Shown: one piece after another, positions 59,666 to 63,549 of the stretch
How positions within the stretch are numbered: the first letter of the stretch is position 1
Layout of the letters: every line of letters begins with the position of its first letter
Source: Phycisphaeraceae bacterium
GTDB lineage: Bacteria; Planctomycetota; Phycisphaerae; Phycisphaerales; Phycisphaeraceae
Assembly (NCBI GenBank): GCA_028284155.1
Contig: JANQSF010000016.1
Coordinates: 1 to 64,000 of the forward strand
Direction: 5' to 3'
Length of the DNA: 64,000 nt
Translations under genes and position numbers: made by a program
Notes under the pieces: model-generated
The model's database searches: none
Told to the model about the DNA's origin: nothing
What the model saw: only the letters and a program-made list of their open reading frames with translations

Positions 59666-59737
59666 GTAGGGTGGGCACTGCCCACCACGTCTTCTCTTCG
59701 CGTTGCCGTGCTCCGTGATGGGCAGTGCCCACCCTAC
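59666..59737. repeat. GTAGGGTGGGCACTGCCCACC palindrome, family C (copy 2)
   Basis: Left arm 59666-59686 and right arm 59717-59737 are the same arms as in copy 1 (53562-53627) with a longer spacer. Lies between the convergent aminotransferase and LptA/OstA-like genes. Confidence 0.8.
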
Positions 59738-59802: not shown

Positions 59803-59838
59803 GGGTGCCACACTTTGCAAAGCCAAAGTGTGGCACCC
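59803..59838. repeat. GGGTGCCACACTTT palindrome, family D, compact copy
   Basis: GGGTGCCACACTTT (59803-59816) and AAAGTGTGGCACCC (59825-59838) are a perfect 14-bp stem around GCAAAGCC. The same sequence forms the ends of the element at 62368-62460 inside the neighbouring gene. It lies 24 bases beyond that gene's stop codon. Confidence 0.85.
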
Positions 59839-59861: not shown

Positions 59862-62800
59862 CTAATCCTGCCGGCTGATCGGCGCTCGGCCGACCCCCAC
59901 GTTCTTGGCCTCGAACCGGTCGCGGTCGAGGTCCCACGTGAAGCCCGTGGCCGTCGCGCCCGACGGTCGGCCGACTTCGGTCAGCGTGCTGACACGGCCC
60001 GGGTCGGCTTCGATGGTGACCGTGCGCGTCGCGTCGTCGAAGTTCAGATGGTCGCTGGTGATCTCACGCACGCGGCGTCGGCCGGCGCTGTCGGTCGACG
60101 TGATTGTGATGCGCAACGCGCCGCCCGACCCGTCGGCCTGCAACTTCTGGAAGCGCGGCTGCGGCCCGCTGCCTTCGATCCACACGGCCATCCCACCGGT
60201 CGATTGGAAATCGGCGTGCAGCGTCTTGCTGTCGAGTTGCATCAGGTGTTTTTTGTCGAGTGTGCGGTGGACCATCTGCACTTGGCCCATGAAGTCCACG
60301 TCGTTACTTTCCGCGTCGATCGTCATGCTTCGCTGCCATGTGAACAACGTCGCGCCGCGACCGGTGAACTTGCCGGCCGGCGTCGCCGCGGTGGCCGGCT
60401 TCTTGTTGTCGCCGTTCTTGGCGAGTTTTTCAGGCCGGTAGTCTTCGACCAGCATCGTCCCCGCGCCGGGCACGACCACGCCCTCACGGCCGGTCGCGCC
60501 GAACCGGTCGAACGAAACGATTGGTCCGGTCAGTTTGAACCGCGTGTTGAGCTTCCCGCCCGGTCGGTCCGCCCAGTTCTCAGCCACAAACGACACCGGC
60601 TTGCCCTTGCCGTCCGCCGACGGTTCGGCTGAGGCAACGGCCGCGGCGATGTCTTTGCCGCCGTCCATCAGTTCTGTTGCGCTTCGCGACTTGGTCTTGC
60701 TTGCCCCGTCGTTCGGCTTGTCGCGATCGACCAGCGTCAGTTCGAGTTTGTGGGCCAGCAGTTCCGTCACGTCGCGGTCGCCCAGCGTCTGTGTGCGGAC
60801 ATCGCCGACGAAGTAAGCCCGGTTGCCCAGGTTGTCGTAACGCATCTGTCGTTGCCAGGCGACGACGACCAGCGTGCGCCCGACGTCGCGCTTCAACTCG
60901 GTGGGGATCTGCATCGTCAAGCGGTGTCGCGTCGCCGGTTGGTCCGCGGCCTTGTCGGACGCCTCGTCTTTGGCGGTTGCTTTCGGCTTGCCCGTGATCA
61001 TCGCCATCTTGCCCTTGCCCGGCACGAAGACGGTCTGGCGTTTCTGATCGACCACGATTTCGTTACCGATGAACAGCACGTCGTCCCGCCAGAAGATGGC
61101 CGGCCGCTCGTCGTTGCCGTATAGCGTGGCCTGCTCCGTGGCCGCGTCGGCGACGACGCGATCCGCCCAGATGTGCCAGTCTTCGTCGAGCGAGTCAAGC
61201 CAAACGCCCGCCTCGGCCGACAGACGCGTGACCTTCAACCTCGACGAGAGTGACGACGAACCGTCGACCCACTTCGGCTTGTCCCGCACGACGGCGACCA
61301 GCGGGCCGACCGGCCGGGCCGCGTCGTGCTGCCAGGTCAGCGCGAGGCGTGCCGGCTGGTCGAATCGCAGCGGCGGACCAGCGTCGGGCTCGCGGCGCAC
61401 CAGGCGGGTGATCCACGGTTGCGCGTCGGCCGCGTTGCGCTCGACCGACTCGAAAGTGATCTCCGCCAACCCGGTGCGCAACCGTTCCTTCGAACGCAGC
61501 ACGTCAACCTTGCCCCACACGCGGACCTTCCCACCGCCCGGCTTGTCGCCGGTCGCCTCGGTGAACGAACCCTCCAGGTGTTCGCTGCGCACCGTCATCG
61601 GCCCATCGCCGTTCGTGTCGGGCGTATGAATCACAACGCGACCGTCGGCCTGCACAGTCTTGATCGGCAGGTCGTTTTTGGATGGCGTGCCGTCGGCGCG
61701 CGGTGGGTGGAACGTCACCGCCAGGGTGTCGCCGTCGAGGTTCATCGACGGGTGACGCAGCCGAACGTCGCCCGCCACGTCGATGCGTTTGAACGGGCCG
61801 AACAGGTCGCCGAACGGGTTGTCGGGCTTGTCTTGTTCGTCCTTGTCGACTTCAGGCTTGCGGTGGAAGGCCACGTCGAGCCGTTCGCTGAACGTCAGCG
61901 TGCCCTGCCGTTCGCTGTCGCCGGAGTCGGGCAGGATTTCCACACGGCCTGCCGGGCCGACGACGTGCGCCTTGTTCGTCCGCCGGTCGAGCGTCAGCGA
62001 TCGGCCAATGAGTTTGCCGTAACGCGGCGAGTGCAGCAGCAACGGGTCGGTCGGCGCGCCTGTGAGCGTGACCAGTTCGGTCGCTTCGACGTACTCGAAC
62101 GACTGGCAACGCCCCGTCTCCTGCTTGTCGGTGACGAACGTCACGGGCGCGCCGCGCAGCGCGATCGACTCCAGCCCGGCCTTCGTCGGCTTGTCCTGCG
62201 TCGGTGTGTCACGCGGCGTGATGACCAACGGCCCGTCCCACCGCACCACGACCTCGTTCAGCCCGCGCTTGTAAAGCGACCGCGCGTCGGCGGGGTTCGG
62301 ATTCGATGCGATGACGGCCGTGTATAGAAAAGTCTGCAGCGAGACGTCGAACGTCGTCGCGCGATTCGGGTGCCACACTTTGGCTTTGCAAAGAGTGTGG
62401 TTCGAAACAGGTGCGCTCCCTGCGTGCTGACACACTTTGCAAAGCCAAAGTGTGGCACCCTGCGTGTCGTTCTGGTGACGACGACTCAACCCATCAAACA
62501 GGTCGTCCCCCTCGCCGCCGTCGCCGAGCACGACGCCCAGCTCCAACTGGTCACCCGTCGCCCGGACGCCCGACATGTCGATGCGGATGTTCTTGGCCAA
62601 CGTGACGCGGTAGCGTTGCAGCTCTTCCTGCTTGCCGACCTTCTTGGCTTTGGGCTTGTCGGTCTTCTTTGGCTTCGACTGGTCGTCGGCCTTGGCTTGC
62701 TTGTCGCGCAGCGGTTTGGAGTCGAAACGCAGGACGTCGCCGCGGGCGATCTCGACGCGGTCCAGCCGCTTCTTTGCCGCATCGTAGATCAGGTTGAAGC

Positions 62801-63407
62801 CCTGACCGCGGATGTCGAACGGTTGGCCGGTCATCTGCACGTCGCTCGAACTGTGCAGCCGACTCAACTCGATGTCGAAGTAGGCCTGCTTGGCGAACGC
62901 CCGCCAGCGGGCGTGCTTCGCGCCGTCGTAATCGATCGCCTCGCCGTCCGGCGACTCGAACATCGTGACCACGACGTGGCCGGTCAGCTCGCCGCTGCGC
63001 AGCTCGTTGTTCGGTGCGCGGATTCGGCCGTGGTCGGCCCGCACCTCGATCACGCGGACGTGGTCTTTCAGATGGATGCGCGCGATCGGCCCGCCCACGT
63101 TCGACTCGCCGCTGGGCAGGGGGTCGAATGTTTGGCCGCCGAACTCGACGAGTTGCCCCTTCTTGTTGCGCGAGGCGTACGCGTAGTCGCGGGCCGAGCC
63201 GGGCTGACGCAGCCGACGTGGGTCGTCGATGCTCGCGCCGCGCCCGGTCAGGCCGGGCAGGGCGTCGGGGTTGTCGATGTCGTCGAGGGACAGGCCGTCG
63301 CCGTCGACCGGGTCTTTGGTCTTGGCCGGCTCGAACGACATGGCGACAATGAGCACGCCCAGGGCGAGCGTACACGCGGCGGCCGTGATGATCTTGCCCT
63401 TGGACAT
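59862..63407 (-). CDS. Large LptA/OstA-like envelope protein
   Basis: 1181 aa. N-terminal membrane anchor ('AAACTLALGVLIVAMSF'), then several segments of the OstA/LptC-LptA beta-jellyroll kind ('IEVRADHGRIRAPNNELRSGELTGHVVVTMFE', 'RIDVAGDVRLRHPSMNLDGDTLAVTFHP', 'TIDAESNDVDFMGQVQMVHR', 'LHADFQSTGGMAVWIEGSG'). LptA/LptC shuttle lipopolysaccharide across the periplasm; planctomycetes have unusually large relatives. Residues about 316-347 are encoded by an inserted palindromic repeat (see 62368-62460), which brings four extra Cys into an otherwise Cys-poor protein. Lys/Asp/Pro-rich linkers occur at about 235-260 and 660-680. Assignment to the Lpt system is inference from fold pattern. Confidence 0.7.
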   Translation of the reverse strand: MSKGKIITAAACTLALGVLIVAMSFEPAKTKDPVDGDGLSLDDIDNPDALPGLTGRGASIDDPRRLRQPGSARDYAYASRNKKGQLVEFGGQTFDPLPSGESNVGGPIARIHLKDHVRVIEVRADHGRIRAPNNELRSGELTGHVVVTMFESPDGEAIDYDGAKHARWRAFAKQAYFDIELSRLHSSSDVQMTGQPFDIRGQGFNLIYDAAKKRLDRVEIARGDVLRFDSKPLRDKQAKADDQSKPKKTDKPKAKKVGKQEELQRYRVTLAKNIRIDMSGVRATGDQLELGVVLGDGGEGDDLFDGLSRRHQNDTQGATLWLCKVCQHAGSAPVSNHTLCKAKVWHPNRATTFDVSLQTFLYTAVIASNPNPADARSLYKRGLNEVVVRWDGPLVITPRDTPTQDKPTKAGLESIALRGAPVTFVTDKQETGRCQSFEYVEATELVTLTGAPTDPLLLHSPRYGKLIGRSLTLDRRTNKAHVVGPAGRVEILPDSGDSERQGTLTFSERLDVAFHRKPEVDKDEQDKPDNPFGDLFGPFKRIDVAGDVRLRHPSMNLDGDTLAVTFHPPRADGTPSKNDLPIKTVQADGRVVIHTPDTNGDGPMTVRSEHLEGSFTEATGDKPGGGKVRVWGKVDVLRSKERLRTGLAEITFESVERNAADAQPWITRLVRREPDAGPPLRFDQPARLALTWQHDAARPVGPLVAVVRDKPKWVDGSSSLSSRLKVTRLSAEAGVWLDSLDEDWHIWADRVVADAATEQATLYGNDERPAIFWRDDVLFIGNEIVVDQKRQTVFVPGKGKMAMITGKPKATAKDEASDKAADQPATRHRLTMQIPTELKRDVGRTLVVVAWQRQMRYDNLGNRAYFVGDVRTQTLGDRDVTELLAHKLELTLVDRDKPNDGASKTKSRSATELMDGGKDIAAAVASAEPSADGKGKPVSFVAENWADRPGGKLNTRFKLTGPIVSFDRFGATGREGVVVPGAGTMLVEDYRPEKLAKNGDNKKPATAATPAGKFTGRGATLFTWQRSMTIDAESNDVDFMGQVQMVHRTLDKKHLMQLDSKTLHADFQSTGGMAVWIEGSGPQPRFQKLQADGSGGALRITITSTDSAGRRRVREITSDHLNFDDATRTVTIEADPGRVSTLTEVGRPSGATATGFTWDLDRDRFEAKNVGVGRAPISRQD
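62368..62460 (+). repeat. 93-bp palindromic element (family D) inside a coding region
   Basis: A 26-bp perfect terminal inverted repeat (62368-62393 with 62435-62460, beginning GGGTGCCACACTTTGGCTTT) encloses about 41 bases. The unit is 93 bases, exactly 31 codons, so the host reading frame is kept. In the minus-strand protein it encodes a Cys/Trp-containing segment ('TLWLCKVCQHAGS' and 'HTLCKAKVWHP') unlike the flanks. A compact relative of the ends is at 59803-59838. Confidence 0.9.
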
Positions 63408-63480: not shown

Positions 63481-63549
63481 AAGCCGGGTCTGTCCGCAGA
63501 CCCGGAGCAGGCGGCGACAGAGGTGCGGGTCTGCGTACAGCCCCGGCTT
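63481..63549. repeat. Hairpin repeat between divergent genes
   Basis: CGGGTCTG-TCCG-CAGACCCG (63484-63503) is a perfect eight-base hairpin. AAGCCGGG (63481-63488) also pairs with CCCGGCTT (63542-63549). The rest of the ~235-base gap before the phosphomutase gene has no gene. Confidence 0.55.

Follow-up and report, generated by a model that had tools for sequence, protein, structure and literature searches.

How a protein gene comes to carry a long palindrome that leaves its reading frame intact, and whether such a palindrome is a coding element or a tolerated repeat, are questions raised by a 93-bp unit (62368..62460, minus strand) in the window, i.e., the whole 64,000-nucleotide stretch of Phycisphaeraceae DNA analysed. 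The unit lies within an LptA/OstA-like gene (59862..63407, minus strand; 1181 amino acids from an ATG start), and the first-pass annotation had described it as an in-frame, 31-codon insertion with 26-bp perfect terminal inverted repeats that left the ORF unbroken. This description was borne out: over 26 bases, GGGTGCCACACTTTGGCTTTGCAAAG (62368-62393) is the exact reverse complement of CTTTGCAAAGCCAAAGTGTGGCACCC (62435-62460), and the unit would be translated, without a stop, as GATLWLCKVCQHAGSAPVSNHTLCKAKVWHP (residues 317-347). It reads open in five of the six frames, and when folded as RNA gave -61.9 kcal/mol versus a shuffled mean of -29.2 (z = -9.8). The insert had also been called rich in both Cys and Trp: the former holds, with three of the five Cys residues of the whole protein present as a CxxC plus a third Cys (the other two lie at positions 12 and 434), but enrichment in Trp is weak (2 of 17).

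With the exact insertion boundaries set from the family consensus, the unit resolves into a first REP unit (62368..62397, plus strand) comprising a GGGTGC foot and a hairpin with one stem mismatch, CAAAGAGTG in place of CAAAGTGTG; a spacer (62398..62430) resembling by eye those of the 93-bp doublets at loci L009, L048 and L063; and a second REP unit (62431..62460, minus strand) matching the consensus GGGTGCCACACTTTGGCTTTGCAAAGTGTG exactly. Compared by eye with other 93-bp doublets, the window copy differs once within the stem and once directly after it. The extra AG of CAAAGAGTGTG was considered as a frame-restoring 2-bp insertion, and rejected because the alignment (by eye) to the other 93-bp doublets is gapless and 93 bp is a common doublet length.

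The claim that the palindrome is a repeated element with further genomic copies proved correct. A 21-nt core has 79 matches at up to two mismatches in the 7.2-Mb genome (161 contigs), the reversed control pattern having none at the same threshold, and at up to three mismatches there are three real matches in the window versus none in shuffled windows. Clustering of the matches yielded about 56 loci and 92 REP units, a count that takes single units at contig ends as loci and may miss a few doublets in which both units have decayed. The 30 complete doublets, 74-119 bp in length and exactly 93 bp in seven cases, share a design in which a variable spacer separates two hairpin units of 30 nt, inverted relative to each other and each with a GGGTGC foot. 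The presence of an inverted REP pair with a spacer, capable of folding into a long hairpin, in many dispersed and mainly extragenic copies, identifies the 93-bp unit as an ordinary member of a REP-doublet (REPIN-type) family. The GTAG/GTGG tetranucleotide is absent from the hairpin foot in both the unit consensus and the RAYT-flanking relatives described below, GGGTGC directly preceding the stem. Among 51 genomes of the same taxonomic family, the sole other carrier of the strict core is G033 (five places); a sister repeat family beginning GGGTGCCACTGGCGGCTTG has 86 units in the window genome and is present in 15 of 151 genomes of the order.

A related compact palindrome, which the first-pass annotation had placed 24 bases beyond the stop of the same gene, was confirmed at 59803..59838 (36 bp), the gap to the gene's last base (59862) being 23-24 bases according to the choice of palindrome edge. 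The compact form recurs at L024 and L049, and from its sequence looks like a doublet lacking the middle between its two CACACTTTG copies. Another doublet, at 59666-59737, carries a canonical GTAG foot (GTAGGGTGGGCACTGCCCACC) and 24-nt arms that are 96% complementary, its core being present at 118 places in the genome (55 forward, 63 reverse), and at 63481-63549, upstream of the LptA/OstA-like gene, lies a doublet of a third type (AAGCCGGGTCTGTCCGCAGACCCG), whose arms are 92% complementary.

Gene context was scored by means of a custom codon model, built from 35 window ORFs, which is not a gene finder, and covers the 45 loci scorable on both sides, 11 others being left out. The count of in-frame intragenic copies that the first-pass annotation had proposed was thereby made: 24 loci lie between tandem genes, 19 between convergent genes and one between divergent genes, and a single locus, the window copy, lies inside a coding ORF. 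The other copies are thus all or nearly all intergenic, the window copy alone (one of the 45 scorable loci) being clearly intragenic, and no family-B locus was inside a gene among 19 scored in the window genome and 16 in G045. Copies sit at a median of 43 nt from gene ends, mostly just beyond the end and with tandem or convergent neighbours, a preference shared with the REPs described by Di Nocera et al. 2013 (PMC3733652).

The host ORF runs uninterrupted, with coding signal to either side of the insert, and its product, presumably an exported protein, matches Pfam LptD_N slightly under the cut-off (19.9 versus 20.4 bits) and has relatives in 47 of the 51 family genomes, a figure that counts the window genome itself. 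Alignment of orthologues of the LptA/OstA-like protein, proposed earlier both as a check on the insertion and as its possible refutation, demonstrated that the insert residues are absent from all 23 of those with both flanks aligned. The corresponding linker (residues 296-375 in the window protein) ranges among these orthologues from 31 to 113 amino acids (median 57), and measures 80 in the window protein with the insert and 49 without; as judged from this variability in length, it is probably unstructured.

RAYTs, the REP-associated tyrosine transposases, are IS200-like single-strand transposases. Matches to Y1_Tnp (PF01797) were scanned by script for nearby GTGCC[AG]C-hairpins in genomes selected partly for sister-family repeats, so that the scan establishes an association and not its frequency. 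REPs with GGGTGCC-hairpins adjoin or flank ten RAYTs, and in addition a broken copy in G033, across seven other genomes of the order (G033, G029, G040, G041, G045, G063 and G155), the loci with hairpins near a RAYT being L114 (a broken RAYT gene), L119 (=L191), L120 (=L197) and L121 in G033, and L180, L183, L185, L187, L189, L194 and L195 in the other six. In most, an inverted pair of hairpins brackets the gene; at L185 two lie on a single strand, and additional copies are present at L180, L183 and L189. The stems vary (TGGCGG, TACTC, ATGGCG, TGACAA, TGCTGG) and the foot is nearly constant, and comparison of these repeats suggests that REP stems may diversify while the foot stays fixed. A tree of 28 RAYTs placed all ten foot-bearing ones used within one clade of 13 (support 99/96), the foot label undergoing 4 changes versus 8.4 in shuffles, so that it clusters on the tree, but not exclusively. 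Viewed individually, the RAYT-flanking REPs at L120, L121, L183, L185 and L187 have a near-constant GGGTGCC start and differing stems.

The window genome yielded no intact RAYT of the foot-bearing clade, although at its completeness of 95.7% an unassembled copy is possible; the best match to this lineage is a fragment with an internal stop (contig 38:71044-71274, E = 4e-4), located 88 bp from a doublet of the window family. None of the RAYTs examined was seen to be flanked by exactly the stem sequence of the window family: the RAYT-flanking REPs of the seven genomes share its foot and design with other stems, and the exact family was seen close to RAYT sequence only at the RAYT fragment. A long doublet (L062:1326-1522) looks as though it were a deletion product of a REP-RAYT-REP unit: its spacer shares an exact 27 bp with the DNA that adjoins the L044 RAYT fragment. 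The two intact Y1_Tnp genes of the window genome (L032:1291-1887 and L033:1423-2064) belong to another RAYT clade and have TTTAGCCGCG-type inverted repeats alongside (by eye); their separate clade and different flanking repeats disfavour them as movers of the window family.

The reading that best accommodates these data, to which we assign a probability of about 0.88, is that the 93-bp unit is a non-autonomous REP doublet, copied in by a RAYT-type transposase and tolerated in the linker of the LptA/OstA-like gene. An unlikely alternative mover is a DDE transposase recognising GGGTGCC ends, the unit then being a MITE, as its terminal inverted repeats and length of about 93 bp would allow; each end is, however, itself a hairpin, the same foot with varied stems adjoins RAYT genes in seven genomes, and no target duplication was seen by eye in the flanks listed. 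The continuous ORF and the coding signal on both flanks would equally suit a true segment of the LptA/OstA-like protein with DNA palindromic by chance, a notion rendered hardly credible by the lack of these residues in every aligned orthologue and the recurrence of the same DNA at about 55 other, mainly intergenic places.

It is very unlikely that the inserted peptide, with its CxxC and third Cys, has been put to use, for example by way of a disulfide that would alter the linker. A Rickettsia-like coding palindrome, adapted to intragenic spread and translation, is likewise most improbable. The unit is palindromic, in frame and open in five of six frames, yet a large share of copies in frame inside ORFs was not seen, with only one of 45 family-A and none of 19 family-B loci in coding ORFs; by a rough estimate that assumes random landing, harmless in-frame insertion and 85% coding density, the expectation would be about 64 in-frame intragenic copies per 44 intergenic ones. 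The single intragenic locus, the length-variable linker and the absence of the insert from orthologues thus mark the window copy as one tolerated insertion, and not a Rickettsia-like coding-palindrome system.

Insertion of the REP doublet would most likely have been effected by a RAYT-type transposase copying it into a new site, given that its inverted GGGTGC-foot hairpin units are like those at RAYT genes in relatives, and we infer that this enzyme would belong to the foot-bearing clade. One copy would have entered the probably unstructured linker of the LptA/OstA-like gene; since its 93 bp amount to 31 codons with no stop in the frame used, it would have left the gene readable and been tolerated, the 31 added residues presumably being translated, neutral and probably of no function. 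As about 26% of in-gene landings of family doublets would keep the frame, this requires no special mechanism.

Other bacteria are already known to harbour in-frame palindromic repeats, and the window copy belongs to that kind. Rickettsia palindromic elements, nearly half of which as first reported lie in ORFs (PMC10969869) compared with one of 45 loci here, had been put forward as the known precedent for a palindromic insert in frame in a protein gene, but are not the only one. Intragenic enterobacterial repeats with ORFs were described in 2007 (PMC2759123); these RU/ERIC repeats are likewise small, mobile and found with open frames inside genes, but their units (RU-1 to RU-3, 103-168 bp, MITE-like) are by description set apart. 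Di Nocera et al. 2013 (PMC3733652) report several species in which REPs lie within ORFs, over half of these REPs occurring as dimers or groups that encode 20-30 residues; O. terrae, a member of the PVC superphylum, is the richest in intragenic GTAG repeats, and the authors propose that flexible linkers or loops render intragenic REPs neutral. The window copy, with 31 residues, is therefore a case of a known kind, differing from those of that report in its host lineage (a Phycisphaerae-type planctomycete) and repeat family. The GGGTGC foot was not found in the available parts of PMC3733652 or PMC6006769, within a literature coverage that was not exhaustive. REPINs (PMC3116915) and RAYT-associated REPs resemble the window family in their inverted short-hairpin pair, variable spacer, length of about 70-120 bp and intergenic dispersal, and the same design adjoins RAYT genes in relatives of the window genome; they differ in their canonical GT[AG]G foot, as opposed to GGGTGC, and in that the window genome has only a fragmentary RAYT of the matching clade and the window copy is intragenic.

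As an in-frame REP dimer, the locus adds a planctomycete example. Of greater use, it points to an apparent RAYT clade in the order, the REPs of which would have kept a GGGTGC foot beneath varying stems.
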